Virus record (IMG/VR): IMGVR_UViG_3300036832_000665
Span: 1-29,079 of that record
Direction: 5' to 3' (one strand)
DNA: 29,079 nt
DNA from: a virus
The translations under genes and the position numbers were made by a program. Below are positions 16,520 to 28,552 of this stretch, piece by piece; the stretch's first letter is position 1, and every line of letters starts with the position of its first letter. The notes under the pieces were generated by a model. It was given only the letters and a program-made list of their open reading frames with translations. It was not told where the DNA came from and searched no databases.

Positions 16520-17170
16520 TCAGATCTCGAAACGCATGTATTGCCGCAGCAACACTTCGGCCGCTTGCATCGCGGGCGACTTCTGGCCTGCAGTCTTGAT
16601 CAGGATTGCATTCGGATCGAAGAACACCACGCGCGCGTGCTTGTGCATGATCTGGCGAATGCCGGCGACTTGCGCTTGTTGCAATCTGATCCTGGCGTCT
16701 TGAATCAGCAGCGCAGTCGCCTGCTTGAGCGGCCAGGGTGCTTCGTCGGGGAGCACATAGCCGCCGGTGTAAGTGACCACCGCGGGCGCGATCCACGGCG
16801 TTGACTGATCGCCGCCAGGATTGTCGATCAGCGAAAGCTTGCCGGATTGGTTCTCGAGCTCATACTCCTCGGGGAACAACCCGATATTTCCATTCGACAC
16901 CGAGACGACGTCCGCGTCGTCAATCGGCCACTGCGACAGGAACAGGCGGCCGTGAACCGTCTCGCGCCAAGTCTCTGTGACTGTCTGTTTTGCAAAGGTT
17001 CGATTGCAGAGCTCGGAGACCGTCGCCGAGTACATCGAGATCCACAGCGCCAAAAGCTGGTCATGCGTTGTGTCTGTCAACGACATCCCAAGCAGAAGTT
17101 TTGCCTCCTCGATCGTGAGCAGGTCGAATTCTTCTGCGGGATCGAGCACCTTGATCGTTCGATCGGCCAT
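16520..17170 (-). CDS. gp6-like head-tail connector (DNA packaging/adaptor)
   Basis: 216 residues. Has the gp6-like adaptor pattern: an N-terminal helix LLTIEEAKLLLGMSLTDTTHDQ, a helix L-L-A-L-W-I-S-M-Y-S-A-T-V-S-E-L-C-N-R-T-F-A (split here), a beta portion, V-V-T-Y-T-G-G-Y-V-L-P and then P-W-P-L-K-Q-A-T-A-L-L-I-Q-D-A. These proteins form the ring below the portal. The start overlaps the stop of the collagen-like gene by 1 nt (TGATG). In HK97-type phages protease and capsid genes usually separate portal and connector; here they are not in the window. Confidence 0.75.
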   Translation of the reverse strand: MADRTIKVLDPAEEFDLLTIEEAKLLLGMSLTDTTHDQLLALWISMYSATVSELCNRTFAKQTVTETWRETVHGRLFLSQWPIDDADVVSVSNGNIGLFPEEYELENQSGKLSLIDNPGGDQSTPWIAPAVVTYTGGYVLPDEAPWPLKQATALLIQDARIRLQQAQVAGIRQIMHKHARVVFFDPNAILIKTAGQKSPAMQAAEVLLRQYMRFEI

Positions 17171-18126
17171 CAGCGCGTCTCAAGTTGAAACTGTTCGAAG
17201 AACGCGCGGAGCTCGAGCGGCGGGCCTTCGGATCCGTCGCTCATGAGCGGGATGGCGACGAAGCGCTTGCGGTCAGGCTTCCAGCCGATCTGCTTGGGCG
17301 CGTCTTTGCCGCGCGGGCCCTCGAGTCCGGTTACGCCGCGCTCGCCCTTCTCGCCGGCCGGCCCTCGCTTCCCCCCGCACGCGAGCATCTGCCAGCCGTC
17401 GCCCGGGCATGCTCCTGGCTCATTGCGCAGCGCGATGAACGACGAGCTCTCACGCGTGACGACGTCGAGCACCTGATATTTTTCGTTCGCGCTGTAAGTC
17501 CCGCGCATGATCGGCGAGCGCGCATCGCTGCCATTGCGGCCAGGTACCGCGAGCGGCAGCCAGTCGGCCCCCGGGCCCGGCGGCCGCCCAGTGTCTTTGG
17601 TCGCCTGCCAGGTCCCGCCCTCATGCACGACGACGTCGCCGGCATATGAGACGCCGTCGGTCCAAGGGCGCGCGATCGGCAGCATGCCGCGCGGACCTTC
17701 GGGCCCTGGCGCGCCGTCCTTGCCATCGCGACCAGCGTGCCCAGCGGCGCCGGGCTCACCCCGCGCACCAGCCAGGCCGACCGGGCCAACCGGACCAGCC
17801 GGACCAGCCGGCCCGGGAAGGCCGCGTTCGCCTTCAGGACCGCTGACCCCGGCCGCACCGGGCACGCCCTGTTCACCGCGCGCCCCTGCCGGCCCCTGCT
17901 CGCCTGCGGGCCCAGCCGGCCCGACATCGCCTCGAGCTCCTACCTCACCCGCCGGCCCGGGAAGGCCGCGTTCGCCTGCGGGCCCCGCGGGCCCTGGCTC
18001 GCCGGCCGGGCCCTGCTCACCGTCGCGGCCCGGATGGCCATACAAGCCGCGACCAGTCGGTCCCGCCGCTCCTACGGGACCGCGCAGATTGCCGACCTTC
18101 CGCCAAAGCACGCCTGTCGTTTCCAT
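17170..18126 (-). CDS. Collagen-like protein with two carbohydrate-binding-like modules
   Basis: 318 residues from ATG 18126 ([10 protein letters not shown]). Residues about 15-147 are unbroken G-X-Y triplets, rich in GPAG and GERG. Residues about 149-197 ([23 protein letters not shown]) and 207-250 ([16 protein letters not shown], then G-D-G-W-Q-M-L) resemble CBM5/12-type modules, in which aromatic residues bind sugars. A short second G-X-Y stretch and a final [12 protein letters not shown] segment follow. A GTG start 30 nt upstream would read through the conserved cassette element at 18139-18152, so I prefer the ATG. Likely a virion surface protein binding carbohydrates; this is inference. 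Confidence 0.78.
17686..18084 (-). repeat. Collagen-like G-X-Y triplet tract
   Basis: About 44 consecutive Gly-X-Y triplets encoded by GGC/GGG-rich codons, residues 15-147 of the collagen-like protein. Such tracts form trimeric collagen helices in phage fibres. Confidence 0.9.
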
Positions 18127-18138
18127 TGCCGATCGCCT

Positions 18139-18152
18139 GTAACAATTCGTGA
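18139..18152 (+). repeat. Cassette element GTAACAATTCGTGA (copy 1)
   Basis: One mismatch from the four other copies. Unlike them it does not sit at a gene's stop codon, and 10 extra bases (18153-18162) separate it from the first operator half-site, which is exactly one helical turn. Confidence 0.7.
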
Positions 18153-18165
18153 ACACTGGCCCTCA

Positions 18166-18203
18166 TAGGACATCTTGACCTATAGGTCATTCTGTCCTAT
18201 ATT
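18166..18203 (+). promoter_or_regulatory. Cassette promoter 1 with two 17-bp operators
   Basis: TTGACC at 18175-18180, a 17-nt spacer, TATATT at 18198-18203. Two abutting operators cover it: TAGGACA-tct-TGACCTA (18166-18182) and TAGGTCA-ttc-TGTCCTA (18183-18199). The whole 34 bp is a symmetric nested dyad. Because it is symmetric, the minus strand also reads ATGACC-N17-TATGAG, which could drive the collagen-like gene. Confidence 0.88.
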
Positions 18204-18233: not shown

Positions 18234-18419
18234 ATGACCGTGATGGAAAAGAACGCCGCGCTCGCCAAGCGCTTCACTGACTACGCGGCCGCCGCGGCAT
18301 TGGCCAAGAAGCTCAAGGCCGATGACCCCGACTGGGACTACGCCGCCAACACCCTGACCCCCGGCGTCTACGTGATCGCCGTGTCGGACGAGGACAACGA
18401 ACTCCTCGGCTACCTCTAA
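18234..18419 (+). CDS. Small acidic protein, unknown
   Basis: 61 residues, first gene of cassette 1. AAGGA precedes the ATG at 18234 (M-T-V-M-E-K-N-A-A-L-A-K). Sequence has a helical A-A-A-A-L-A-K-K-L-K stretch, then D-P-D-W-D-Y and V-Y-V-I-A-V-S-D-E-D-N-E. No family recognised. The in-frame GTG at 18210 has no ribosome site and lies too close to the promoter. Confidence 0.72.
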   Translation: MTVMEKNAALAKRFTDYAAAAALAKKLKADDPDWDYAANTLTPGVYVIAVSDEDNELLGYL

Positions 18420-18447
18420 CCCCAAGACAGAAAAGGACCTGACTGCA

Positions 18448-18738
18448 ATGCAACTCTCTGAAGCTCTCGCGATGGTCAAGGCCGCGGGCTACCGCGTGTC
18501 AAAGCCACGCGCAAAAGCCGCGGCACCCACGCTCAACGCCGTCGGCAAACCCTACGGCGCCAACTTCGATCCGAACTACCGGATGAAGTACCGGACGCCG
18601 CCGCTGAAACGCGGCGCCCAGAACCTCGCCGGCTGTGCGGTGACCCCCGCGAAATGGGCCGAGATGTGCCGCGAGGCGCAGGCCGCCTGGGATGCCAAGC
18701 AGGCCGCCGAGCTCGCGCCGATGCAGGAGGCCGCGTGA
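18448..18738 (+). CDS. Small Ala/Pro-rich protein, unknown
   Basis: 96 residues with AAAGGA 10 nt before the ATG. N-terminal helix MQLSEALAMVKAAGYRVSKP, a basic proline-rich middle (K-A-A-A-P-T-L-N), then W-A-E-M-C-R-E-A-Q-A-A-W-D-A-K-Q, a helix. The last three residues are E-A-A, and the codons for them carry GGAGG, the ribosome site for the next gene, whose ATG overlaps this stop codon. Confidence 0.72.
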   Translation: MQLSEALAMVKAAGYRVSKPRAKAAAPTLNAVGKPYGANFDPNYRMKYRTPPLKRGAQNLAGCAVTPAKWAEMCREAQAAWDAKQAAELAPMQEAA

Positions 18739-18740
18739 TG
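18726..18740 (+). repeat. Coupling junction GGAGGCCGCGTGATG (copy 1)
   Basis: A 15-bp sequence that ends one gene as E-A-A-stop and starts the next by a TGATG overlap; GGAGG is the ribosome site. Identical copies lie at 21266 and 21541. Confidence 0.85.
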
Positions 18741-19127
18741 GCCTCTCACGATCGGCAGACTTTCGGCTCGGCGCTGCGCCAACCTTGGGCATTGGCCCGC
18801 ATTGGGTCGAACTGCCCGCCCGGCCGGCGCCCAGCAACCGAGATCGTCTACCTCACCGACGACGAGGGCGACTGGTATCTCGGCGGCACCGTGTCGTTTT
18901 ACCGCGCGCGCGGCCGCCTGGTTCGCACCGAAACAGGTTTCAAGCGCACCGGCGAGGAGCTCACCCCGCGCTGGCACTACAGCTACAAACGCGCCAAGCG
19001 CATCGCCAAGGCCGACGTGCTGCACATCTTCCCCAGCACCGACAAGTCGACCTACGGCGGGCCCCTGATCGCCGAAGTCCGCCGCGCCCGCAAGGCGCTC
19101 CCCATCACGCCAGAGGATTCCCAATGA
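18738..19127 (+). CDS. Unknown protein, cassette 1
   Basis: 129 residues from the ATG in the TGATG overlap at 18738. Core is beta-rich: I-V-Y-L-T-D-D-E-G-D-W-Y-L-G-G-T-V-S-F-Y then R-T-E-T-G-F-K-R-T, and A-D-V-L-H-I-F-P. The D-D-x-G-D-W-Y pattern is reminiscent of small barrel proteins, but I recognise no named family. Translation is coupled to the gene upstream. Confidence 0.72.
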   Translation: MASHDRQTFGSALRQPWALARIGSNCPPGRRPATEIVYLTDDEGDWYLGGTVSFYRARGRLVRTETGFKRTGEELTPRWHYSYKRAKRIAKADVLHIFPSTDKSTYGGPLIAEVRRARKALPITPEDSQ

Positions 19128-19414
19128 CGACCTATTACCGCGCCACGTTTAGCGATGGCACCGTGATCAAACGATCGACCGCGTCCCGCAGATACACCCA
19201 CGCCTGGATCTATCGGCACGAGCTCGAGCCCGAGCTCGCGGCCAGGTGGGGAAGCCCGACCAGCCAGAGCCAAGGTTTTTCGGGAAGCATCGTTAACGCT
19301 TACGCCACGCTCGGCCGCTATCAGCGGCCAGGTAACAAGGTCCTGCTCGCCGAGGTCGCGCCGGTGTTCGAAATCACCGCCGCCGAATATCGGCAGAAGG
19401 CCCGCCGCTTGTAA
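19124..19414 (+). CDS. Unknown protein, last gene of cassette 1
   Basis: 96 residues starting MTTYYRATFSDGTVIKRST in an ATGA overlap with the previous gene. Beta-hairpin start, then R-R-Y-T-H-A-W-I-Y-R-H and A-P-V-F-E-I-T-A-A-E-Y-R-Q-K, a typical small-phage-protein sequence. No known domain. Its TAA stop lies inside the conserved GTAACATTTCGTGAT element. Confidence 0.74.
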   Translation: MTTYYRATFSDGTVIKRSTASRRYTHAWIYRHELEPELAARWGSPTSQSQGFSGSIVNAYATLGRYQRPGNKVLLAEVAPVFEITAAEYRQKARRL

Positions 19415-19428
19415 CATTTCGTGATGAT
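19411..19428 (+). repeat. Cassette element GTAACATTTCGTGATGAT (copy 2)
   Basis: Includes the TAA stop of the cassette 1 gene and abuts the first operator half-site of promoter 2. Identical to the copies at 20808 and 23570. Confidence 0.85.
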
Positions 19429-19465
19429 AGGACATCTTGACCTATAGGACAGAATGACCTATATC
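19428..19465 (+). promoter_or_regulatory. Cassette promoter 2 with two operators
   Basis: TTGACC at 19437-19442, 17-nt spacer, TATATC at 19460-19465. Operators TAGGACA-tct-TGACCTA (19428-19444) and TAGGACA-gaa-TGACCTA (19445-19461). The outer right half-site is TGACCTA instead of TGTCCTA, so the second operator uses a different W base. Confidence 0.85.
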
Positions 19466-19507
19466 AGCATCGAAGAAAGAAACATGGCCAACAGAAAGGA
19501 ACCCGCC

Positions 19508-19756
19508 ATGATCCCCAATTACCTGACCTCCCGTTGCGAGCGCGACATCTGTCGCAACGCGGATTGCGCCGAGGCCGTGAAGCAGCGGCCGGACACTGGC
19601 CGGTGGTACATCACGATGGGCCACCCTGGTTTCAACTCTTCGGCGAATAACCGGGACGGTTACCGTTCGGCCGCCAACGCGCGCGCCGCGGTCCGGATGT
19701 ATGGCGCGCGCGGAGCTCGGATCGAGAACAAAGTCGTCGAATGGCCGACGCGCTGA
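19508..19756 (+). CDS. Unknown Cys-containing protein, cassette 2
   Basis: 82 residues from the ATG at 19508, preceded by AAAGGA at about 8 nt. MIPNYLTSRCERDICRNADC has a Cys pattern, then R-W-Y-I-T-M-G-H-P-G-F-N and A-A-N-A-R-A-A-V-R-M-Y. An in-frame ATG at 19484 with a weaker site is possible; an earlier one at 19454 lies inside the operator and is rejected. Four cysteines near the start might bind a metal; no family recognised. Confidence 0.65.
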   Translation: MIPNYLTSRCERDICRNADCAEAVKQRPDTGRWYITMGHPGFNSSANNRDGYRSAANARAAVRMYGARGARIENKVVEWPTR

Positions 19757-19902
19757 CGGAGCACTGGCCTCGCCCTCGGCCAGACTTGCAAGACTAGGGG
19801 CCCTTGCCAGCCGCGGGGCATGTGCCGCGGCCCGGACCTGCCGACGGAGTGGAGCAGGCGCGCGAGGGGGCCTCAGCGACACGCCCCCAGGAGTTTGACC
19901 CC
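19757..19902 (+). other. Non-coding gap with two hairpins
   Basis: 146 nt without a gene. Hairpins: CTGGCC / GGCCAG at 19764-19783 directly after the stop of the previous gene, and GCCGCGG / CCGCGGC at 19810-19831. No T-tract follows, so termination is doubtful; they may act in the leader of the next gene. Confidence 0.5.
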
Positions 19903-20178
19903 GTGAAAAGTCTGCTTGCGATATTAACGCTGACCGCGGCGATGATGTCGAGCGCGCACGCCTGCGCCCCGCCCGATATCGGCGATCAGTTCCGATACAA
20001 CGATGGCCGGGTCATCGAGTTGGCAAAGCCAGTCGACCAGGACTGCTATTTCGAAAAGCGGAAAGCCTGCTTTCGGCCGGTTGGCTCGCATGAGCCTTGT
20101 CGCTGGATCAAGTTCCCCGACTTCTATGAGGGCCCCAGCGGCAAGTGGATCGTGATCAATGGCGTCAAGCAGGACTAA
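19903..20178 (+). CDS. Small secreted cysteine-containing protein
   Basis: 91 residues from a GTG preceded by AGGAG at about 10 nt. N-terminal VKSLLAILTLTAAMMSSAHA is a clear signal peptide with an AHA cleavage site before CAPP. The mature part has Cys in C-A-P-P, D-C-Y-F-E-K-R-K-A-C-F and P-C-R-W-I-K, likely forming disulfides, and a D-Q-F-R-Y-N-D-G-R-V motif. Probably exported to the periplasm. Role unknown; early secreted phage proteins sometimes alter the envelope or host surface. Confidence 0.72.
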   Translation: MKSLLAILTLTAAMMSSAHACAPPDIGDQFRYNDGRVIELAKPVDQDCYFEKRKACFRPVGSHEPCRWIKFPDFYEGPSGKWIVINGVKQD

Positions 20179-20186
20179 ACCAAATA

Positions 20187-20264
20187 GGCCAGCCACGAGA
20201 CGGGATAACCGCCTAGCTCCCCAGCCGCGGCATCCGCCCCGGGCTGGCCACCCCTGAAATTTTT
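20187..20264 (+). terminator. Possible terminator: inverted repeat with T-tract
   Basis: GGCCAGCC (20187-20194) and GGCTGGCC (20242-20249) form an 8-bp stem with a 47-nt loop, followed by AAATTTTT at 20257-20264. The large loop makes this weak. It separates the secreted protein gene from promoter 3. Confidence 0.35.
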
Positions 20265-20267
20265 CGA

Positions 20268-20305
20268 TAGGACATATTGACCTATGGGCCATTGGCCCCT
20301 ATATA
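20268..20305 (+). promoter_or_regulatory. Cassette promoter 3, second operator degenerate
   Basis: TTGACC at 20277-20282, 17-nt spacer, TATATA at 20300-20305. First operator TAGGACA-tat-TGACCTA (20268-20284) is intact. The second site has changed to TGGGCCA-ttg-GCCCCTA, keeping a dyad (GGGCC/GGCCC) but losing the consensus. It drives the alarmone hydrolase gene, which may therefore be less tightly repressed. Confidence 0.82.
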
Positions 20306-20322
20306 AGAGTCGAGGAGTTGAC

Positions 20323-20811
20323 ATGACCACCCTGGTCACCAGAGCCGCCGAGTTTGCCAGAACCGCCCACGCGGGCCAGGTCCGACGATACACCGGCGAA
20401 CCCTATTTCAATCACGCCGCCGCGGTCGCCCACCTGGTCGCCGCGTCCGGCGCCGACGAGGCCACGATCGCCGCGGCCTTCCTGCACGACACCCTCGAGG
20501 ACACCGCCACGACCTTTAACGAGCTCCTGGCTGCGTTCGGGCTCGAGGTCGCCACCCTGGTGCTCGAGGTCACCGACGTCGCGAGCCACGGCGACCGGGC
20601 GGCACGAGCGGCGCTCGCCCGAGCTCACCTGGCCAAGGCCTCGGCTCGAGCCAAGACGATCAAGCTCGCCGACGTCATCGACAACACGGGCTCGATCGCC
20701 GAGCGGGATCCCGAGTTTGCCAAGGTCTACCTCGCCGAGAAGCGGGCTTTGCTCGAGGTCCTCGGCGGCGGCAGCCCCGCCTTATTCGCCCTGGCCAAAG
20801 CCAACTTGTAA
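20323..20811 (+). CDS. Small alarmone (ppGpp) hydrolase, MESH1/SpoT HD type
   Basis: 162 residues with GAGGAG 6 nt before the ATG. HD-domain hydrolase of the RelA/SpoT N-terminal type: A-H-A-G-Q-V-R-R-Y (15-23), G-E-P-Y-F-N-H with metal ligand His31, F-L-H-D-T-L-E-D-T with His55-Asp56 and catalytic Glu59-Asp60, F-G-L-E-V-A-T-L-V-L-E-V-T-D (72-85), and K-L-A-D-V-I-D-N with Asp117. All residues needed in MESH1 and SpoT are present. It would remove the 3' pyrophosphate of (p)ppGpp. Size equals the hydrolase domain alone, with no synthetase, TGS or ACT domain. It is the sole gene of its cassette. Related HD hydrolases act on other nucleotides, so substrate is inferred. Confidence 0.85.
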   Translation: MTTLVTRAAEFARTAHAGQVRRYTGEPYFNHAAAVAHLVAASGADEATIAAAFLHDTLEDTATTFNELLAAFGLEVATLVLEVTDVASHGDRAARAALARAHLAKASARAKTIKLADVIDNTGSIAERDPEFAKVYLAEKRALLEVLGGGSPALFALAKANL

Positions 20812-20825
20812 CATTTCGTGATGAT
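20808..20825 (+). repeat. Cassette element GTAACATTTCGTGATGAT (copy 3)
   Basis: Contains the TAA stop of the hydrolase gene and abuts promoter 4. Identical to copies 2 and 5. Confidence 0.85.
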
Positions 20826-20862
20826 AGGACATCTTGACCTATAGGTCATTCTGTCCTATATT
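20825..20862 (+). promoter_or_regulatory. Cassette promoter 4 with two operators
   Basis: TTGACC at 20834-20839, 17-nt spacer, TATATT at 20857-20862. Operators TAGGACA-tct-TGACCTA (20825-20841) and TAGGTCA-ttc-TGTCCTA (20842-20858). Identical to promoters 1 and 6 throughout. Confidence 0.88.
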
Positions 20863-20895
20863 CCGGTTGTAAGAAGAAAGCAGGAGAATTGAGAG

Positions 20896-21033
20896 ATGAA
20901 ATGGATGGTTGAAGTTTTCAAGGACGGCGAATGGACGCCAGCGACAACCCACGGCACCAAAAAGAACGCGAAGTATTGGGCCGCCTGGTGGCTGAAGGAA
21001 GGGTTCGAAGCCGCCCGCATCGTGAAATTCTGA
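20896..21033 (+). CDS. 45-residue Trp-rich protein
   Basis: First gene of cassette 4, AGGAG 10 nt before the ATG. Sequence MKWMVEVFKDGEWTPATTH, then K-K-N-A-K-Y-W-A-A-W-W-L-K-E-G-F-E-A-A-R-I-V-K-F. Five Trp in 45 residues, and a two-part beta-helix-beta layout. The F-K-D-G-E-W-T and E-A-A-R-I-V-K pattern suggests a compact folded protein. No family recognised; clear ribosome site and position support it. Confidence 0.68.
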   Translation: MKWMVEVFKDGEWTPATTHGTKKNAKYWAAWWLKEGFEAARIVKF

Positions 21034-21044
21034 GAGAGGACACC

Positions 21045-21278
21045 ATGAAAAAGTTCGAAGTTGGCAAGACCTACTCGACCCGCTCTCTGTGCGACTGGGA
21101 CTGCGTCTTCTCGTTCAAGATCCTGGCCCGGACCGCCAAGACCGTGACGACCGAAGTTCACGGCAAGATCGTGCGGCGAGGCCTGTCTCCCAACTGGGAA
21201 GCCACCGCCGAGTCGTTCAAGCCCTTCGGCACCTATTCGATGTGCGCGGTGATCACCGCCGACAAGGAGGCCGCGTGA
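21045..21278 (+). CDS. Small conserved phage/plasmid protein of unknown function
   Basis: 77 residues, GAGAGGA before the ATG. MKKFEVGKTYSTRSLCDWDC, then a beta-rich body F-S-F-K-I-L-A-R-T-A-K-T-V-T-T-E-V and F-G-T-Y-S-M-C-A-V-I. This start (V-G-x-x-Y-x-T-R-S-x-C-D-W-D-C) resembles small proteins I associate with mobile elements; no function known. Ends in E-A-A with the GGAGG coupling junction to the next gene. Confidence 0.75.
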   Translation: MKKFEVGKTYSTRSLCDWDCVFSFKILARTAKTVTTEVHGKIVRRGLSPNWEATAESFKPFGTYSMCAVITADKEAA

Positions 21279-21280
21279 TG
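21266..21280 (+). repeat. Coupling junction GGAGGCCGCGTGATG (copy 2)
   Basis: Same 15-bp E-A-A-stop/ATG junction as at 18726 and 21541. GGAGG lies 7 nt before the overlapping ATG. Confidence 0.85.
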
Positions 21281-21553
21281 AGGACCCCAGTTGAAATGCT
21301 GAAGCCAGGCGATGTGATCCTGCCTCCTGAGCGCGAGTTGCGCTTGTGGATGCGTCGCGAGAATGCGGCGATGGGCCTGCCGGAAAGCGCCCTGAACCTG
21401 CGAGTGAAGACGGTCGAGGAGGCCGCGCCGGACAAGCGAGGGCGCTGGGTGCTCGTCACCGCGGAACACTTGGCCCCGGAATGGAGCCGCAGCTATCCGT
21501 TCAAATTCAAAGCCCGGCCCGGCACGCCCTGGCCGAAGATGGAGGCCGCGTGA
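21278..21553 (+). CDS. Unknown protein, cassette 4
   Basis: 91 residues starting MRTPVEMLKPGDVILPPERE in the TGATG overlap. The M-L-K-P-G-D-V-I-L start and E-E-A-A-P-D-K-R-G-R-W-V-L-V-T-A-E strand pattern suggest a small beta-barrel with an N-terminal hairpin. It ends K-M-E-A-A, again with the coupling junction. No family recognised. Confidence 0.72.
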   Translation: MRTPVEMLKPGDVILPPERELRLWMRRENAAMGLPESALNLRVKTVEEAAPDKRGRWVLVTAEHLAPEWSRSYPFKFKARPGTPWPKMEAA

Positions 21554-21555
21554 TG
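21541..21555 (+). repeat. Coupling junction GGAGGCCGCGTGATG (copy 3)
   Basis: Third identical junction, ending the 91-residue gene as E-A-A-stop and starting the 146-residue gene. Confidence 0.85.
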
Positions 21556-21993
21556 GACGCCGCAAAGTTCGATCGCCTGTTCCCCAAGGCCGCGCCGGGA
21601 CTGCCGGCGGGATATGCGGACTGGCGCAAGAAGGTCAACGCCGCGGTGTGGCGCAAGGCCGGCCTATCGGTCGACGACCTCCCCGACTTCGATCTGATCA
21701 GCGCGTTCGAAGACGGCGCCTCGCCGTCCAAGGCCGCGGCGGCCGCGATCCGCGCGGCGAAGGACGGCCTACGCCTTGGCGACGTCGTACGCGAGCGCGA
21801 CGGTTGCCACCTGGGCGAGGTCCGCGCGATCGACCAGACGCTTCTGGTCAAGATCGTCTGGCACGACACCGGCTGGATCAGTTGGATCCACCGCGACGAG
21901 CTCGAGCTCGTCTCCCGATCGACGACGACGAGCATGCAAGGCTTTAGCGCAGCGGTCGCGCGCAATCGTGCGCGCATCGGGCTGCCAGTCTGA
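21553..21993 (+). CDS. Unknown two-part protein, cassette 4
   Basis: 146 residues, ATG in the TGATG overlap. N-terminal helical half: F-D-R-L-F-P-K-A-A-P-G-L-P-A-G-Y-A-D-W-R and W-R-K-A-G-L-S-V-D-D-L-P-D. C-terminal half about 75-125 looks like a small barrel: L-R-L-G-D-V-V-R-E-R-D-G-C-H-L-G-E-V and T-L-L-V-K-I-V-W-H-D-T-G-W. The 'GDVVRERDGxxLGxV' layout is KOW/SH3-like. No named family. Confidence 0.72.
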   Translation: MDAAKFDRLFPKAAPGLPAGYADWRKKVNAAVWRKAGLSVDDLPDFDLISAFEDGASPSKAAAAAIRAAKDGLRLGDVVRERDGCHLGEVRAIDQTLLVKIVWHDTGWISWIHRDELELVSRSTTTSMQGFSAAVARNRARIGLPV

Positions 21994-22005
21994 AACGGAG
22001 CAAAA

Positions 22006-22245
22006 ATGAAAAAGTATCTTTACTGGCGCCGCGGAATGAATGGCCGATGGATTGGTACTGGCGATCATCGCTGGCCAAACACTCACGGCAAGCACTGGGT
22101 CATTCGTCGCGGCGAGCGCGCCGGTAAAACCATCGTCTATCTCGATCGTCCTACCTACGGGACCGAGGTCTGCAAAAACATCCGGCACGCCAAGGAATAC
22201 GCCAATGAACTGGCGCGGCTGGCCGGCTTCCCGGCTTGCTCCTGA
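22006..22245 (+). CDS. Small basic protein, last gene of cassette 4
   Basis: 79 residues, GGAG 6 nt before the ATG. MKKYLYWRRGMNGRWIGTGD is rich in Arg, Tyr and Trp, followed by H-W-V-I-R-R-G-E-R-A and a helix H-A-K-E-Y-A-N-E-L-A-R-L-A-G. It may bind nucleic acid, judged from charge only. No family recognised. Confidence 0.7.
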   Translation: MKKYLYWRRGMNGRWIGTGDHRWPNTHGKHWVIRRGERAGKTIVYLDRPTYGTEVCKNIRHAKEYANELARLAGFPACS

Positions 22246-22256
22246 CTTGGAACCTT

Positions 22257-22274
22257 GTAACATTTCGTGATCAT
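22257..22274 (+). repeat. Cassette element GTAACATTTCGTGATCAT (copy 4)
   Basis: One base differs from copies 2, 3 and 5. Unlike these, it lies 11 nt after the upstream gene's own stop at 22245, so here the TAA is not used. Confidence 0.8.
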
Positions 22275-22311
22275 AGGACATATTGACCTATAGGACAGAT
22301 TGACCTATATT
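22274..22311 (+). promoter_or_regulatory. Cassette promoter 5 with two operators
   Basis: TTGACC at 22283-22288, 17-nt spacer, TATATT at 22306-22311. Operators TAGGACA-tat-TGACCTA (22274-22290) and TAGGACA-gat-TGACCTA (22291-22307), the same half-site choice as promoter 2. Confidence 0.86.
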
Positions 22312-22339
22312 CCGATTGTCAGAAGGAAGGACAACGGAA

Positions 22340-22483
22340 ATGAAAAAGAAGCCCTGGATTTCGCCGACAAAAAAGAAGCTCTGGATTTTTCTCGATTACA
22401 CCCGGTTCGGCGTGTTCGTGGTGAACTTTGCCGACAAGGCCAACAGTTCGGTGTGGATGATCCCCGGCACCGCGACCGCCTGA
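22340..22483 (+). CDS. 47-residue protein with internal duplication
   Basis: First gene of cassette 5. AAGGAAGGA lies about 10 nt before the ATG. MKKKPWISPTKKKLWIFLDY shows a repeat (K-K-K-x-W-I), visible in DNA as AAGAAGCCCTGGATTT and AAGAAGCTCTGGATTT. The rest is T-R-F-G-V-F-V-V-N-F-A-D-K-A-N-S-S-V-W-M-I-P. A compact folded small protein is likely; function unknown. Confidence 0.62.
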   Translation: MKKKPWISPTKKKLWIFLDYTRFGVFVVNFADKANSSVWMIPGTATA

Positions 22484-22498
22484 AGAAAGGAAAGACCG

Positions 22499-22732
22499 AT
22501 GACCCTCGTCCGCCAGTTCTCCCGTTGCGGCCCGTGCCTCACCCTCGGCCGCCTCACCAAAGAGACCGCCCAGTTTTACTGCTTCGACGAGTGGTGCGGC
22601 GGTGACGTGTTCCAGGGCGCCAAGCGGGTGCGCAAAGAGCTCCCCGGCCAGTGGTCACCGAACCACGTCGAACCGTGCCCGTCATGCCGGGATCACCCCC
22701 GGACCCAATACCCCAACGGATACCAGGACTGA
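22499..22732 (+). CDS. Zinc-ribbon-like small protein
   Basis: 77 residues, AAAGGA before the ATG. C-G-P-C at 10-13, C28 and C33 in F-Y-C-F-D-E-W-C-G-G, and C-P-S-C near the C-terminus (59-62) suggest one or two zinc sites. Cys pairs of this spacing are found in DNA- or RNA-binding ribbons, though no family is certain. Confidence 0.7.
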   Translation: MTLVRQFSRCGPCLTLGRLTKETAQFYCFDEWCGGDVFQGAKRVRKELPGQWSPNHVEPCPSCRDHPRTQYPNGYQD

Positions 22733-22746
22733 AAGGAGTCACTCCC

Positions 22747-23181
22747 ATGGGCTACTCATGCACTGCCAAAGCCGCGCTCGTCCTCGACGCCGTCCAGGCG
22801 ATCATGGACGCGGCGCTGCCAAACGAAAAATCTTCGAACAAGCTGCCCGGTGGCGGCTTCTGGGAACGCGGCCGCGAGCAGCCTGACGGCGCCGTGACCG
22901 GAACCACCTGGAAGCCTTCGGGCCCGAAGATGACCGATGCCCAGAAGCTCGCCTATGCCCGCAGCAAGGGCTGGACCGACGACTACGCCAAATATGTCGG
23001 CGACCCCTGCCGCCGCGCCGGCTCGTTCAAGATCTCAGCCGACGGCAAGATCGTCCGGTTCCCCGGCTTGACGAAGGCGCAGAAGACCGCGGCCGAGCGC
23101 GCCGGTGCCAACGCCTTCGCCGAGCGCTTCGGCGGCTTCAACTATGACACCCGAGGCATGGGTCGCGGGCTGGTCCGATGA
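22747..23181 (+). CDS. Unknown protein, cassette 5
   Basis: 144 residues, GGAGT 8 nt before the ATG. MGYSCTAKAALVLDAVQAIM helical start, then G-G-G-F-W-E-R-G-R-E-Q-P-D-G-A-V-T-G-T-T-W-K and K-I-S-A-D-G-K-I-V-R-F-P-G-L, with a basic helical end. The start and 'GxVTGTVWK' motif look like a family seen in mobile elements, but the function is unknown. Confidence 0.74.
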   Translation: MGYSCTAKAALVLDAVQAIMDAALPNEKSSNKLPGGGFWERGREQPDGAVTGTTWKPSGPKMTDAQKLAYARSKGWTDDYAKYVGDPCRRAGSFKISADGKIVRFPGLTKAQKTAAERAGANAFAERFGGFNYDTRGMGRGLVR

Positions 23182-23573
23182 AAAAGCTTCTACTCGCCGC
23201 CGTCGCCGCGCTCGCGATTGCGACCCCCGCCGACGCCGCCAGACGATGCAACTGGAACAACGACTCGTGTCTCGTGTCGCTCGAGATCACCCCCGACTCA
23301 AGCAAGAAGTCTGACACGACATTTGTTCAAGCCGGCAGCATTCCGCTCAATACAGCGCGCGGGGTTCCGGTCATTCTCACGATCAGCAACGATAGCGATT
23401 ATGACATCATCGCCATGACCTGGGGCTGTCGAGCTCCGGGCCGGCGCGGCGGGATGATCTTTACCGGCCAGGTCAAAGCACACAGCACCGAAACTGAAGT
23501 GACTGAATTGCCTTCATTTGCATATCAGCCCGGCGACCAGCAGGAATGCAAAGTCCTCGAGTTCCGTCGGTAA
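23178..23573 (+). CDS. Secreted protein, last gene of cassette 5
   Basis: 131 residues in an ATGA overlap. MKKLLLAAVAALAIATPADA is a signal peptide with an ADA cleavage site. The mature domain is beta-rich with Cys in R-R-C-N-W, S-C-L-V-S-L-E, W-G-C-R and E-C-K-V-L-E: four Cys likely make two disulfides. Exported by Sec. Role unknown; secreted proteins in early phage cassettes can alter the cell envelope. Its TAA stop lies inside the next cassette element. Confidence 0.75.
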   Translation: MKKLLLAAVAALAIATPADAARRCNWNNDSCLVSLEITPDSSKKSDTTFVQAGSIPLNTARGVPVILTISNDSDYDIIAMTWGCRAPGRRGGMIFTGQVKAHSTETEVTELPSFAYQPGDQQECKVLEFRR

Positions 23574-23587
23574 CATTTCGTGATGAT
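23570..23587 (+). repeat. Cassette element GTAACATTTCGTGATGAT (copy 5)
   Basis: Contains the TAA stop of the secreted protein gene and abuts promoter 6. Identical to copies 2 and 3. Confidence 0.85.
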
Positions 23588-23624
23588 AGGACATCTTGAC
23601 CTATAGGTCATTCTGTCCTATATT
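23587..23624 (+). promoter_or_regulatory. Cassette promoter 6 with two operators
   Basis: TTGACC at 23596-23601, 17-nt spacer, TATATT at 23619-23624. Operators TAGGACA-tct-TGACCTA (23587-23603) and TAGGTCA-ttc-TGTCCTA (23604-23620). Identical to promoters 1 and 4. Confidence 0.88.
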
Positions 23625-23652
23625 CGGATTGTAGAAAGGAAAGGAAAAAACA

Positions 23653-24189
23653 ATGGCTATCCGAATGATGGTTGAAGCAGGAGCTCCGGGCGCGGTCCGC
23701 GACGAGTATTGGTCAAAGACCACCGGCCAGGAGATCTACACCGCCATATCGCACGAGGGGCTGGTCCTCAGCCTGGGCGAGTACAACGGTTACGACGACA
23801 GCGATTTTTACGCCGTGGTCTGGAACGAGGAAAAGGGCAACACCGAGCGGGTCGTTTACGCCAGTACGCGGGGATGGACTTATCCCAACGGCGCCGCGGT
23901 CGACGCCACCGAAGAGGTTCAGGCCAAGTATGCCGCCCGCTGCGAGAAGATCACCGCCGAGTTACGGGCCGCGCGCGCTGAGCGGGAGGCCAAGACGCCG
24001 GCCCGCGGCAAGAAGGCCAAGACCACCCGCAACGTCCGCGGCAAGTCGGCGATCGAGGCCGGTATCGAGGGCGAGATCTTCTGGGTCGGCAAGGACCGCT
24101 ATTCCGGCGCCATGCGGATCGGCTTCGCTGCCGCCGACGGCCGCAAGGTCTTCATCGCCGCCAACGCCGTCGAAGTCACGAGCTCGTGA
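23653..24189 (+). CDS. Unknown protein with C-terminal SH3-like segment
   Basis: 178 residues, sole gene of its cassette, AAAGGAAAGGA before the ATG. N-terminal part beta-rich: Y-T-A-I-S-H-E-G-L-V-L-S-L-G-E-Y-N-G-Y-D-D-S-D-F-Y and V-Y-A-S-T-R-G-W-T. A charged helix (about 91-120) with K-K-A-K-T-T follows, then G-I-E-G-E-I-F-W-V-G-K-D-R-Y and G-R-K-V-F-I-A-A-N-A-V, a short KOW/SH3-like barrel. May bind nucleic acid; no family known. Confidence 0.75.
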   Translation: MAIRMMVEAGAPGAVRDEYWSKTTGQEIYTAISHEGLVLSLGEYNGYDDSDFYAVVWNEEKGNTERVVYASTRGWTYPNGAAVDATEEVQAKYAARCEKITAELRAARAEREAKTPARGKKAKTTRNVRGKSAIEAGIEGEIFWVGKDRYSGAMRIGFAAADGRKVFIAANAVEVTSS

Positions 24190-24202
24190 CCAAAAAATCT
24201 CC

Positions 24203-24240
24203 TAGGACATATTGACCTATAGGTCAGTGTGTCCTATATA
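24203..24240 (+). promoter_or_regulatory. Cassette promoter 7 with two operators
   Basis: TTGACC at 24212-24217, 17-nt spacer, TATATA at 24235-24240. Operators TAGGACA-tat-TGACCTA (24203-24219) and TAGGTCA-gtg-TGTCCTA (24220-24236). The GTAACATTTCGTGAT element is missing here. It leads the longest cassette. Confidence 0.87.
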
Positions 24241-24265
24241 CGGGGTCGTGAGAAAGGAAACGACG

Positions 24266-24505
24266 ATGTTTGAAGTTGGCACTTTTGTCGAGATCACCAC
24301 CAAGGCCCGGGCCTACACCCACATGGGCTACACCGACCCCGGTTACATCTTGCCCGAGACTAAGGCGGTCTTCCGGGTCAAGTCGAAGCGGATGACCAAG
24401 AACGGCTTGAAGGTTCACTTCCGCGATCAGAGCAACTGCGGTTTCGCGATCGATGTCGAGAAGACGCAGATCCATTCATTCCGAACCGTCGAGGCATGGT
24501 CATGA
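24266..24505 (+). CDS. Small beta-rich protein, cassette 7
   Basis: 79 residues with AAAGGAAACG before the ATG. MFEVGTFVEITTKARAYTHM, Y-I-L-P-E-T-K-A-V-F-R-V-K-S and G-L-K-V-H-F-R form a likely small barrel. The F-E-V-G-x-x-V start resembles the 77-residue protein of cassette 4 (K-F-E-V-G-K-T-Y), so the two may be distant relatives. Unknown function. Confidence 0.72.
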   Translation: MFEVGTFVEITTKARAYTHMGYTDPGYILPETKAVFRVKSKRMTKNGLKVHFRDQSNCGFAIDVEKTQIHSFRTVEAWS

Positions 24506-25017
24506 CCAAATACGTCACTAACGGCGCGCTATTCGGCAAGCCCGCGCAGATCCCCGACTTGCGGCGCTTTATGGCCGATTTGAGCAAAGCAATGAAAGGG
24601 CGACTTGTCCGCCACGACCTCGAAATCGAAGGCGTCCGCATTGTCGCGCATCCAATTGTCAAATGGTCCGAGTCCAAGGGCAAATATAGCGTCTCGCTGA
24701 CCGAAGCGCGCCTCGAAGTTCGCGGCGCACGGCGCCGGCTTGTCGGCAATTCGTTTTTGGTGCCAGAGGGCGAGGAATACAAACTCCCCACGCTCCGCAT
24801 CAATCTCGGCCGCTCGAAAGCAGCGCTCGCCAAAGAAATCAAGCGGGTTCTAGTCGAACCGTCGAAAACCGCGCTGCAGAAACATCGTGCTTGGAACGAG
24901 CAGCAAGAGGCGAACGACAAAGCACTGGGCAAGGCGCTCGCGCAGCACTTGCGCGGTGGCCCGGTGTCGCGAGAGCAGAAACAAATTCTGAAACGTCACA
25001 AGATAGCAACCCTCTGA
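24502..25017 (+). CDS. Unknown protein, cassette 7
   Basis: 171 residues, ATG in an ATGA overlap at 24502 with GAGG 7 nt upstream; an ATG two codons earlier is worse placed. Basic (many Lys/Arg) with an N-terminal helix P-D-L-R-R-F-M-A-D-L-S-K-A-M-K-G-R, a beta segment K-Y-S-V-S-L-T-E-A-R-L-E-V-R and a helical C-terminus. No domain recognised. Confidence 0.74.
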   Translation: MTKYVTNGALFGKPAQIPDLRRFMADLSKAMKGRLVRHDLEIEGVRIVAHPIVKWSESKGKYSVSLTEARLEVRGARRRLVGNSFLVPEGEEYKLPTLRINLGRSKAALAKEIKRVLVEPSKTALQKHRAWNEQQEANDKALGKALAQHLRGGPVSREQKQILKRHKIATL

Positions 25018-25031
25018 ATAGGAGCAAAACC

Positions 25032-26054
25032 GTGGTTAGCAATTCTGAACTTCTGAACCTGATCGAGGCACTGCGCATACACGGCGCCGAGATCACCGTG
25101 ACGATGGACGAAGAGGCCAGGGCCAGCGAGGGCCGGGACCTCATCGCCACCGTCACCGTTGCCGGCGTGCGCGGGATCGGCCCGTATCCGATGGCACCGA
25201 TCGCCGCCGCTGAAGCGATGCGAGCCGCCCTGGCCTCGATCGCCGACTATGAGAACAAGCTCGATGGCAAACGCGAGCGCCTCGAGGATCGCGCCGATCG
25301 CCTGCAGCGGGAGGCGAACGCCGCTTACAAGAGCGGCATGGACCGGCTCAAGGTGATCCCGTTCGGCCAGCCGATTCTGGTTGGCCACTACAGCGAGAAC
25401 CGCGACCGGAACTACCGGCGCAAGGCGATCGCCGCGGTCGACAAGGGCATCGAGCTCAACAAGACCGCCCAGGCGACAGCCGCGCGGGCTGAGGCGATCG
25501 GCACCGGCGGGATCTCGTCCGACGACCCGACCGCGGTCGCGCAACTCAAGATCAAGCTGGACAACCTCGAGCGCGAGCAGAAGCGGATGACAGCAATCAA
25601 TGCCGCCTGGCGTAAGGCCGGCAAACCGAAGGCCGACAACCTCGAGGCCTGGTCGAAGGTCGCCGACGCGATCGGCATGAACGTCAACGACCTGGGCAAA
25701 GTCCGCCAAGCGATGGCGAGCGACTTCCTCGATCGAGCTCCGTTCACCTATCACCTGACCAACAACAACGGAAACATGAAGCGGATCAAGGACCGCATTG
25801 CTGGCCTCGAGCGCGTCGCCACCGCGGAGACGAAGGAAACCGAGCTCCCCGGCGGCGTGCGGATGGTCGAGAACGTCGAGGCAAACCGGGTGCAGTTGTT
25901 CTTTCCCGGCAAACCCTCGGCCGAGGTTCGGACGTTGCTGAAGCGGTCCGGCTTCCGCTGGTCGCCCAGCGAGGGCGCCTGGCAGCGGCACCTGAACGGC
26001 GGCGGCGTCTGGCGCGCGCGTCAGGTGCTCGAGGACATCGCGAGGCTGCCATGA
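25032..26054 (+). CDS. DUF3560-type protein
   Basis: 340 residues from a GTG preceded by GGAG at 7 nt. Residues about 81-265 fit DUF3560: R-E-R-L-E-D-R-A-D-R-L-Q-R-E-A-N, then I-P-F-G-Q-P-I-L-V-G-H-Y-S-E-N-R-D-R-N-Y-R-R-K-A (109-132), a very characteristic segment. The C-terminus 287-321 is V-Q-L-F-F-P-G-K-P-S-A-E-V-R, L-L-K-R-S-G-F-R-W-S-P and G-A-W-Q-R-H-L, a module shared with plasmid antirestriction/replication-associated proteins. N-terminal 80 residues are separate and beta-rich. Function of DUF3560 is not established; found in plasmids and phages. Confidence 0.8.
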   Translation: MVSNSELLNLIEALRIHGAEITVTMDEEARASEGRDLIATVTVAGVRGIGPYPMAPIAAAEAMRAALASIADYENKLDGKRERLEDRADRLQREANAAYKSGMDRLKVIPFGQPILVGHYSENRDRNYRRKAIAAVDKGIELNKTAQATAARAEAIGTGGISSDDPTAVAQLKIKLDNLEREQKRMTAINAAWRKAGKPKADNLEAWSKVADAIGMNVNDLGKVRQAMASDFLDRAPFTYHLTNNNGNMKRIKDRIAGLERVATAETKETELPGGVRMVENVEANRVQLFFPGKPSAEVRTLLKRSGFRWSPSEGAWQRHLNGGGVWRARQVLEDIARLP

Positions 26055-26275
26055 ACACGCTCAAAACCGCTCTGCGCTCTGACACGCTCGATTCGGCGCT
26101 CTACGTTTTGCAGCGCGCGCTTGGCATCGAAACCGGCGACGTCGCCGGGCAAGTGTTTCGCAACCGCGATCATGCCACGTGGCCGCAGTTGCCCGATAAC
26201 CAACGCCGGATAGTGCTGTTGAACTATCTCAGCGCCGAGCTCGATCACGCGGAAGGTCGCCATGAGAATGCCTGA
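26051..26275 (+). CDS. Small unknown protein, cassette 7
   Basis: 74 residues in an ATGA overlap with the DUF3560 gene. MNTLKTALRSDTLDSALYVL and L-P-D-N-Q-R-R-I-V-L-L-N-Y-L-S-A-E-L form two helical segments around W-P-Q-L. Acidic C-terminus. No family known. Confidence 0.7.
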   Translation: MNTLKTALRSDTLDSALYVLQRALGIETGDVAGQVFRNRDHATWPQLPDNQRRIVLLNYLSAELDHAEGRHENA

Positions 26276-26498
26276 CGACGACGCGCTCGACATCGCTATC
26301 GAGTGGCTGACTTGTAACGAAGGCGAGGGCGCCGAGGGCGAGGCCTGTAAGGCGGTCGCCCGCTGGCTTGCTTTCGAGCAGTGCGAGCGAACAGTTCGCA
26401 CCGCTGCCCGCGCTGCCGGCGTGACGGTCGCGCAGCTACGTCGCAGGCTACAAGAGAAAACCTTGACAAATAGGACAAAATGTCCTAGATCAGAATGA
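26262..26498 (+). CDS. Small protein with C-terminal HTH-like segment
   Basis: 78 residues, GGAAGG before the ATG; overlaps the previous gene. MRMPDDDALDIAIEWLTCNE acidic start, then A-V-A-R-W-L-A-F-E-Q-C and R-T-A-A-R-A-A-G-V-T-V-A-Q-L-R-R-R-L-Q, a helix-turn-helix-like pattern. Its last 12 codons overlap promoter 8, so its end and the next gene's promoter share sequence. Confidence 0.68.
   Translation: MRMPDDDALDIAIEWLTCNEGEGAEGEACKAVARWLAFEQCERTVRTAARAAGVTVAQLRRRLQEKTLTNRTKCPRSE
26463..26491 (+). promoter_or_regulatory. Promoter 8 with a single operator (HTH gene)
   Basis: TTGACA at 26463-26468, a 17-nt spacer, TAGATC at 26486-26491. One 17-bp operator TAGGACA-aaa-TGTCCTA (26471-26487) in the same register as the second operator of the other promoters (ends one base into the -10). 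The first operator position is absent. It fits an autoregulated promoter. Confidence 0.82.
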
Positions 26499-26719
26499 CC
26501 ATGATGAAATCACGCCAATATCGCAGATTTCTCGACAAGCTCGAGATCTCGCAAGCCCGCGCCGGTGAGATGCTCGGCCTCACCCCGCGCACATCGCGCC
26601 GCTATGCGGCCGATGACACCGCCATTCCGGGCGCCGTCGACATCGTGCTGCGCATGATGATCAAGCACAAATACACGCCCGACGATATCGACAAGCTGAA
26701 ACGGGAGGCACTGCTATGA
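26495..26719 (+). CDS. Small HTH protein, candidate repressor
   Basis: 74 residues from the ATG at 26495; starts at 26501 and 26504 are also possible. HTH about 19-40: I-S-Q-A-R-A-G-E-M-L-G-L-T-P-R-T-S-R-R-Y, with Q20-A21-R22 opening helix 2 and P31-R32-T33-S34-R35-R36-Y37 as likely recognition helix (XRE-like). C-terminal region Y-T-P-D-D-I-D-K-L is short, with no peptidase or large dimerisation domain. There is no Shine-Dalgarno, and the start lies 4-13 nt after the -10, so the message may be leaderless. It is the best candidate for the protein that binds the TAGGWCA-N3-TGWCCTA operators. Confidence 0.75.
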   Translation: MTMMKSRQYRRFLDKLEISQARAGEMLGLTPRTSRRYAADDTAIPGAVDIVLRMMIKHKYTPDDIDKLKREALL

Positions 26720-26919
26720 AATACGGCGCCTTTGAATCTCACCCGGCGATGTTCGACGATCGCGAGGGCTGGGTGCTGTTCCCGTCTCCGCGCGAATGGC
26801 TCGAGCTCGCCCATTCCGAAGTTCTGCAGAAGACCAAGGTCATGAGCGAAGCGGAATTTGAGCGGACCTTCGGGAAGCTGCCGCCGCTGCCGAAAAATGC
26901 TTTTTCGGGCCAAGCTTGA
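26716..26919 (+). CDS. Small protein downstream of the HTH gene
   Basis: 67 residues in an ATGA overlap with the HTH gene (ATG at 26716). MKYGAFESHPAMFDDREGWV, P-S-P-R-E-W-L-E-L-A-H-S-E-V-L and M-S-E-A-E-F-E-R-T-F-G-K-L-P-P-L-P end in a conserved-looking motif. Likely co-translated with the regulator. It overlaps the convergent collagen/RelA-like gene by 80 nt, so one of these ends may be overcalled. Confidence 0.66.
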   Translation: MKYGAFESHPAMFDDREGWVLFPSPREWLELAHSEVLQKTKVMSEAEFERTFGKLPPLPKNAFSGQA

Positions 26920-28552
26920 GCGCCTCCCGCCAATCGCTCGAATAGCTGTCGGTCACCTTGCCGTAGATCCCGCGCTGCTTATCGCTGAGCGCCTGGTAGC
27001 GCGGATCGTTTTTGCCGAATTCCTTTTCAATTTTTTGCTGCTCTTTGTAGGCGGCGTGCCCGCCTTCCTTGTTCTTGGCGTTATACATCCCGCGCTCGAC
27101 GATCTGGACCTCGGCAACGAGACCGCTGGACCCGCGAAGCTGCAGCGCCTTGTCGGCGTAGCCGAGGTCGGTCGGCTTCCAGGGCTCCTCGGCGACTTCG
27201 AATCCGGCTTTGGCAAACTCCTCGGCGATGCCTTTGGCCTGCTCCGGGGTGTCGACGACGAAGCCGCCGCGAGCGAGATCGGTCACCCGCTCGACGCCTT
27301 TGCGCTGCTCGATCTTCTCGTCGATGCGCGCGCGATCGGTCTTGACGCCGGGATCCTGAAACTCGATGCCGCGCTTTTCCGCGACCGCGCGGCCGACGTC
27401 ACCGAGCATCTTCTGCTCCGCGGGCGCGGCTTTGACTGCCGCGTCCATGGCCGCCTTTTTGTCACCGCCGAACTTGTCGGCCCTGAACGGCGACGCCTGG
27501 AACCAGTCGGCCTTTGCTTTATCGACTGCCTCGTTGTCGTTCTTCGCCTTCACGCCCGCTGAAAAGCCCGCGACGGGTTTGCTGCCGTCGCCCTCTTTCG
27601 GTTCTTTGCCGCCGCCGCCAGTGTCGCCGCCGCCGCCGCCGCCAGAGCTCCATTTGCCGTCGTCGTCGCGCGGCTGGTCATCGGAATATTTGATCGACGA
27701 GTAAACGTCGCCGCTCTCGGTATCTAGGTAAATCGTCCCCGGAGCCATCGCTAGCAGCGGCGGACCGCGGCCGACGATGATGCCGGCGCCGTCGCGTCCG
27801 GCTAGCCCTCGAGGACCGACGTCGCCGGGCGCGCCTCGAGCTCCTGCCGGCCCGCATGAACCGGCCTCGCCTATCGGGCCACGTTCACCCGCTTGACCAA
27901 CAGGGCCGGCCGCGCCTTCCGGACCGCGCTCGCCGCGTTCACCCGGATCACCCTGGGCCCCGGCCTGACCAATTTCGCCCGGGGCACCTTCCGGGCCGCG
28001 CTCGCCCTGCGCGCCAGGCGCGCCGCGATCACCCGCAGGACCAACAGGCCCCGGTTCGCCTCGATCGCCTGGATCACCGCGCGCCCCATCTGCGCCACGC
28101 TCGCCTGCAGCGCCCTGAATTCCGGCGGCTCCGTCCGCTCCCCGCTCGCCCTGTAGACCACGCTCGCCTTGCTCGCCGCGCTCGCCTTGCTTGCCATCTT
28201 CGCCTCTTTCGCCTTTTGGGCCCGGAGCTCCATCGCGCACAACGGCTAATCGTTCGGCGACTTGTCGGATGAGCTCGGTGACTTGCTTGGTGACTCGTTC
28301 AAGATGTTCGGCGATGGTGCGCTCGAGTTCGGCCTTGAACAAGACCATCTGGGTCTGCTGTTCGGAAACCGAGCGGCCGCTTTCGGCAACGACCTTTTCC
28401 ATCTGCGCGACGAAAAGATCGCGCTCGCGTTTGAGCGTTGCACGCTCTTGCGCGACAAGGTCGCCGAGGACTTCCTGCCAAACTTCAAAGGTATCGTCGT
28501 CCAGCCTGGGCTGCGGCGGCCCAGACTCCTGCTCGTGCCCGTTTGACGACAT
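26840..28552 (-). CDS. Collagen-like protein with C-terminal RelA/SpoT-like domain
   Basis: 570 residues from the ATG at 28552 (AAAAGGA upstream). Residues 25-105 are a coiled coil; 108-256 are about 49 G-X-Y triplets; 262-302 contain G-T-I-Y-L-D-T-E-S-G-D-V-Y, a common fibre module; 303-316 are poly-Gly. Residues about 370-535 resemble RelA/SpoT-type nucleotidyltransferases: V-K-T-D-R-A-R-I-D-E-K-I (403-414), V-T-D-L-A-R-G-G-F-V-V-D-T with Asp425 and Arg428, L-G-Y-A-D-K-A-L-Q-L, then A-E-V-Q-I-V with Glu481. Asp425 and Glu481 match catalytic Asp and Glu of RelA synthetases (D264, E323 in Rel of Streptococcus). N-A-K-N-K-E-G-G-H-A-A-Y-K-E is also like phage members of this family. Product and target are unknown. 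Confidence 0.72.
   Translation of the reverse strand: MSSNGHEQESGPPQPRLDDDTFEVWQEVLGDLVAQERATLKRERDLFVAQMEKVVAESGRSVSEQQTQMVLFKAELERTIAEHLERVTKQVTELIRQVAERLAVVRDGAPGPKGERGEDGKQGERGEQGERGLQGERGADGAAGIQGAAGERGADGARGDPGDRGEPGPVGPAGDRGAPGAQGERGPEGAPGEIGQAGAQGDPGERGERGPEGAAGPVGQAGERGPIGEAGSCGPAGARGAPGDVGPRGLAGRDGAGIIVGRGPPLLAMAPGTIYLDTESGDVYSSIKYSDDQPRDDDGKWSSGGGGGGDTGGGGKEPKEGDGSKPVAGFSAGVKAKNDNEAVDKAKADWFQASPFRADKFGGDKKAAMDAAVKAAPAEQKMLGDVGRAVAEKRGIEFQDPGVKTDRARIDEKIEQRKGVERVTDLARGGFVVDTPEQAKGIAEEFAKAGFEVAEEPWKPTDLGYADKALQLRGSSGLVAEVQIVERGMYNAKNKEGGHAAYKEQQKIEKEFGKNDPRYQALSDKQRGIYGKVTDSYSSDWREALKLGPKKHFSAAAAASRRSAQIPLRS
26890..26908. terminator. Hairpin at the convergent gene ends
   Basis: CCGAAAAA (26890-26897), loop TGC, TTTTTCGG (26901-26908): a perfect 8-bp stem inside the overlap of the two convergent genes. 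Its A/T runs could act as a two-way terminator. No separate T-tract follows, so it is tentative. Confidence 0.4.
27785..28231 (-). repeat. Collagen-like G-X-Y triplet tract
   Basis: About 49 uninterrupted Gly-X-Y triplets (residues 108-256 of the 570-residue protein), with GERG and GEQG dominating. The triplet composition differs from the tract in the other collagen-like gene (GPAG-rich). Confidence 0.9.

Follow-up and report, generated by a model that had tools for sequence, protein, structure and literature searches.

What is the function of a 15-base word that recurs in front of the promoters of a phage small-gene region? We addressed this question for positions 1 to 29,079 of the IMG/VR virus record IMGVR_UViG_3300036832_000665 (29,079 nucleotides, hereafter the window). 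In this window, GTAACATTTCGTGAT is found as four exact plus-strand copies (at 19411, 20808, 22257, and 23570) and as a fifth, variant copy with two mismatches to the 15-mer (at 18139, plus strand). The initial annotation had reported four copies and a weaker fifth, and the repeat is real: at up to three mismatches the window holds five matches, compared with 0.45 expected from shuffled sequences, and none of 100 shuffles reaches five. As detailed below, the 15-mer is very probably a promoter element to which a protein binds, rather than a signal for stop codons or recombination. The five copies and the operators that follow them are:

18139-18153, plus strand: variant of the upstream promoter element (GTAACAATTCGTGAA), with 10 bp (one turn) more between it and its -35 box
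18166-18199, plus strand: two abutting 17-bp operator palindromes; -35 TTGACC at 18175-18180, -10 TATATT at 18198-18203
19411-19425, plus strand: upstream promoter element, exact; its TAA is the stop of the open reading frame (ORF) 19124-19414
19428-19461, plus strand: two operator palindromes; -35 TTGACC at 19437-19442, -10 TATATC at 19460-19465
20808-20822, plus strand: upstream promoter element, exact; its TAA terminates the HD-domain gene 20323-20811
20825-20858, plus strand: two operator palindromes; -35 at 20834-20839, -10 TATATT at 20857-20862
22257-22271, plus strand: upstream promoter element, exact; its TAA is not a gene stop
22274-22307, plus strand: two operator palindromes; -35 at 22283-22288, -10 TATATT at 22306-22311
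23570-23584, plus strand: upstream promoter element, exact; its TAA terminates ORF 23178-23573
23587-23620, plus strand: two operator palindromes; -35 at 23596-23601, -10 TATATT at 23619-23624

IMG/VR was scanned with the element with loosened flanks, with the 16-mer alone, and with the element plus TTGAC within 30 bases. The element occurs in more than 119 IMG/VR stretches, many of them with promoters among the matches listed, and has the 15-position consensus GTAACA-WTWC-GTGAT. Seventeen extra one-mismatch copies were detected inside those loci, compared with 0.1 for permuted motifs. After dereplication of the loci, the start of TTGAC follows the 15-mer at offsets of 0 (24 cases), 10-11 (31), 20-22 (24), or 30-31 bases (5), with few cases between these classes. 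A Rayleigh test at 10.5 bp gives R = 0.59 (p ~7e-17; p ~5e-9 without the offset-0 class). Of 106 elements, 27 have promoter-like sequence at the phased offsets on their 3' side, compared with 4 on the opposite side. Given that the TTGAC offsets correspond to about zero, one, two, and three helical turns, the element occupies a single helix face, as activator sites do. The window contains an example of such a shift: 27 bases separate the element start from the operator start in the copy at 18139, compared with 17 in the other copies, and the additional 10 bp are one helical turn.

We thus find a specific site upstream of the -35 box in fixed helical phase, the arrangement of activator-dependent, class I/II-type sigma-70 promoters, and this phased, one-way placement toward the -35 box is the signature of a directional site whose bound protein reaches RNA polymerase. 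The element is kept while the surrounding sequence changes. The initial annotation had offered two interpretations: binding of a protein or polymerase is strongly supported by helical phasing, directionality, and conservation across unrelated phages, whereas the interpretation as a stop-codon element and site of cassette recombination is not.

The spacing between the two halves of the element was varied with the pattern GTAACA-N(1-8)-GTGATTTGACA. Most matches have the four-base gap (21), but 15 have a gap of one base (GTAACAgGTGATTTGACA). The word with the one-base linker, GTAACAGGTGATTTGACA, has 15 dereplicated occurrences in viral contigs and is probably an unrelated conserved sequence. Six loci, probably from marine phages (L018, L048, L076, L092, L127, and L140), carry extra GTWACA words ~10 and ~20 bp upstream of the element, which suggests tandem binding sites.

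Among isolates, the element was found in the Bradyrhizobium elkanii prophage ppBeUSDA76-2, in the Rhizobium phages RHph_I3_11, N3_13, and N3_19 (~440 bp from the left end of the record), in Ochrobactrum phage OC (one mismatch), and in Roseobacter phage CRP-13, as three variants close to the end from which its leftward genes start. In CRP-207, a one-mismatch copy is located inside an annotated DNA polymerase gene. Matches in phages of other classes are mostly inside genes and chance-like. Literature searches for the element sequence or its complement returned no match. The 15-mer is a real upstream promoter element in a subset of alphaproteobacterial phages, apparently an undescribed one, and behaves like an activator site.

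In the window, a pair of 17-bp inverted repeats (TAGGWCA-N3-TGWCCTA) that abut each other follows each of the five copies. The first palindrome overlaps the -35 box TTGACC and the second reaches a -10 box of the TATATT type, so that inverted repeats lie inside the core promoter, as in acr-aca operons. Three further promoters (20268, 24203, and 26471) have the operator without the element, bringing the total to eight promoters with the same operator, ahead of small-gene cassettes and an HD-domain gene. These promoters and the gene of the proposed repressor are:

20268-20301, plus strand: element-free operator promoter with a degenerate second palindrome, before the HD-domain gene
24203-24236, plus strand: two operator palindromes, promoter without the element
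26471-26487, plus strand: single palindrome in the spacer of the promoter of the helix-turn-helix (HTH) gene (TTGACA at 26463-26468, TAGATC at 26486-26491)
26495-26719, plus strand: 74-amino-acid Aca-like HTH protein, proposed repressor of all these promoters; start perhaps at 26504, judging by homologues

In the promoter of the HTH gene itself (26463-26510), only 3 bp separate the -10 box from the ATG listed at 26495. Homologues suggest a start at 26504, with which the HTH transcript would be nearly leaderless. A scan of genome contigs with a TAGG-specific pattern gave two matches, both chance-like, and a TACGC promoter pattern gave none in isolates and one chance-level match in plasmids.

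Homologues of the HTH protein are encoded near the element in many loci. In the dereplicated loci, one residue of the recognition helix changes together with the operator: arginine or lysine is found with TAGG (14 loci against 1, with one tie), and glutamine or histidine with TACG (17 against 0; Fisher p = 3e-8 for the covariation, uncorrected for kinship). The lone exception, locus L366, has a second HTH protein of the histidine class beside the first. In this locus, two promoter copies (1661-1722 and 2135-2196) that match almost completely over ~60 bp precede different small genes and accompany two HTH genes of different helix class. The published sites of Aca1 (TAGGCACAATGTGCCTA; arginine at that place of the helix, ...RVMRYY) and Aca10 (ATACGCTCATTGAGCGTAT; Q37 at that place) obey the same rule (PMC9410906, PMC9410881). 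From this covariation, the small HTH protein probably binds the paired inverted repeats. A profile search identified Aca1 as its nearest relative of known structure (E-value 1.3e-4). The structure model of the HTH protein has a predicted local distance difference test (pLDDT) score of 92, and fold comparison matched it to HigA2 (Z 10.5), MqsA (Z 10.3), Aca10 (Z 9.6), and Aca1 (Z 8.3, 32% identity), as well as to Aca2.

For a sample independent of the element, loci were fetched by the HTH protein alone (55 after dereplication). The element, at up to two mismatches, lies within 1200 bp upstream in 28 of these 55 loci, compared with none of 55 on the reverse strand and 0.05 with permuted motifs. 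Positions 1, 4, 6, 8, 10, 11, 12, and 14 are invariant in the 28 copies. The interval between promoter and HTH gene usually contains one or two ORFs of ~30-120 amino acids that differ between phages, and the small HTH regulator gene ends this small-gene operon. In this layout, the loci match acr-aca operons.

We propose, with a probability of roughly 0.7, that these promoters combine the site of an activator exploited by the phage, most likely a host protein, upstream of sigma-70-type promoters with repression by the Aca-like HTH protein, giving an early burst of transcription followed by shut-off. GTAACA-WTWC-GTGAT would be bound by a sequence-specific activator, which would contact RNA polymerase from upstream at a promoter of the sigma-70 type. 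The activator would most likely be an alphaproteobacterial host regulator that many unrelated phages use for their early promoters. It is probably host-encoded, since phages of different kinds, temperate as well as apparently lytic, keep the element constant while their operators change. In the phage studied here and its kin, the paired palindromes over the promoter core are probably bound by the small Aca-like HTH repressor. When the DNA enters the cell, the host activator would be present and the repressor still absent, so that the small early genes would be transcribed in a burst. As the HTH protein accumulates, the promoters would be shut off, as in acr-aca operons.

Several observations weigh against this proposal. 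About half of the HTH loci lack the element, and HigA2 and MqsA match the HTH fold as well as the Aca proteins do. None of the published alphaproteobacterial motifs that we checked fits the element, and no copy was found in nine alphaproteobacterial megaplasmids (10.8 Mb scanned). In addition, of ten isolates searched, the eight other alphaproteobacterial phages, which were chosen regardless of the element (seven of them arbitrarily), yielded no convincing copy. The element is thus common but scattered rather than universal.

In the initial annotation, the repeat was read as a conserved stop codon and a possible junction for the exchange of cassettes by recombination. The TAA is indeed the true stop of the upstream gene in three of the five copies (at 19412, 20809, and 23571), and near-identical promoter units stand before different genes both in the window and in L366. 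The TAA at 22258 ends no gene, the gene at 22006-22245 having already ended upstream, nor does the TAA at 18140, where the neighbor on that side is divergent. Across phages, the TAA ends the upstream ORF in 23 of 112 phased elements, compared with 13-18 of 112 at shifted control positions, an excess that hardly exceeds chance, and the element is also found in divergent and non-coding contexts. The frequent stop-codon use in the window reflects how tightly the genes are packed locally. Recombination leaves the helical phasing to the -35 box unexplained, and the same 15-mer is kept by unrelated phages whose operators and flanks differ, making this explanation very improbable. No close relative of this phage turned up for comparing cassette borders; the paired promoter copies in L366 and a homologue of gene 18738-19127 behind an element-free operator of the same kind in L334 and L335 are indirect hints of cassette exchange at most. 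We give equally little credence to the element being an extra binding site of the HTH repressor or of another phage-encoded protein. In this window it always adjoins operators, but across loci the HTH helix and the operator change together while the element stays constant, and RHph_I3_11 and CRP-13 have the element at promoters without these operators.

An UP-element-like site, read directly by the C-terminal domain of the RNA polymerase alpha subunit with no activator, would fit the location just upstream of the -35 box and the tolerance of one-turn shifts. It is nevertheless unlikely, given that its near-invariant positions over 15 bases of mixed composition (CGTG among them) give the element a much higher specificity than that of A/T-rich UP elements, and that the element is restricted to some alphaproteobacterial phages. 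Within the proposal of a host activator, a special case is that the factor is CenR, an essential OmpR-family regulator of alphaproteobacteria. In the CenR regulon promoters of Rhodobacter (PMC9275681), the site is also directly upstream of the -35 box and co-directional with transcription, with half-sites (TNRC and GTGA) similar to those of the element. Removal of one linker base brings the score of the element into the top 0.3-0.9% of shuffles, whichever of most columns is removed. However, the CenR sites are degenerate, are associated with host envelope genes, and have a repeat spacing of 11 bp compared with 10 bp in the element; the second base of the left half-site is A in the element and mostly G or C in CenR sites. 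The motif as published (TGA-N8-TGA, 11-bp spaced) scores at shuffle level on the element. We therefore doubt that CenR is the factor. Among other regulators, the CtrA site (TTAA-N7-TTAA; PMC9437464) is built of TTAA half-sites that do not occur in the element consensus, and the published ChvI motifs (TTGC-N3-GCAA and N-GCC-N8-GCC), compared for ChvI/BvrR, are unlike the element. For IHF, LexA, the PHO box, and CRP/FixK, by-eye comparison with the consensus sites revealed misfits in spacing or letters.

The proposed combination of host activator and phage repressor resembles known systems in part. CtrA sites are likewise host-regulator sites in phage promoters of the same bacterial class, with a proposed role in the timing of phage gene expression. 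They differ in being clustered intergenically in particular phages, and one-turn phasing to the -35 box is not among the features reported in the available text of that study (PMC9437464). The acr-aca operons of Aca1, Aca2, and Aca10 (PMC9410906, PMC9410881) share one or two inverted repeats over the -35 and -10 boxes, small diverse genes, a small HTH autorepressor, and the same operator classes (TAGG for the arginine helix of Aca1, TACG for the glutamine helix of Aca10). In contrast to these operons, the promoters described here have an extra upstream element, a single HTH gene in the window seems to control eight promoters, and the cargo is not known to inhibit CRISPR. In SIRV2 with Aca8 (PMC11065993), one conserved regulatory sequence also precedes many small early genes of a single virus, but those are archaeal TATA/BRE promoters, whereas the promoters here are of the sigma-70 type with an activator-like site.

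The element provides a short search pattern for promoters, probably early ones, of rhizobial and marine roseobacter phages, and thereby a route to candidate anti-defence genes in a bacterial class with few known. It also raises the question of the host protein on which these phages rely, and the one-residue link between repressor and operator could predict cross-regulation between prophages. More tentatively, at somewhat less than even odds, a so far unlinked activator of Rhizobiales and Rhodobacterales may be exploited by many unrelated phages through a near-invariant 15-bp site for immediate-early expression; site and Aca-type operators together would then point to a large, untapped collection of anti-defence genes in alphaproteobacteria, and one residue of the recognition helix would reveal the operator.

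The genes behind these promoters in the window are:

18234-26272, plus strand: small-gene cassettes behind operator promoters, mostly without known family

Judging by this layout, the cassette genes are candidate early or anti-defence genes. The gene under the operator promoter at 20268, which lacks the element, encodes an HD_4-domain protein (20323-20811), and its DNA resembles a gene annotated as GTP pyrophosphokinase in Bradyrhizobium phage BDU-MI-1. A reading frame with a DUF3560 domain (24891-26054, E-value 3.6e-26) is also located in the operator-controlled region. The gene at 18738-19127 has a 48%-identical relative upstream of an HTH gene in locus L334 (586-1098); in L334 and L335, this homologue lies behind a TAGG-type operator promoter without the element. 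Finally, two collagen-like (Gly-X-Y) genes on the minus strand (17170-18156 and 26840-28729) flank the small-gene region, and the second of them matches tail fibre families.

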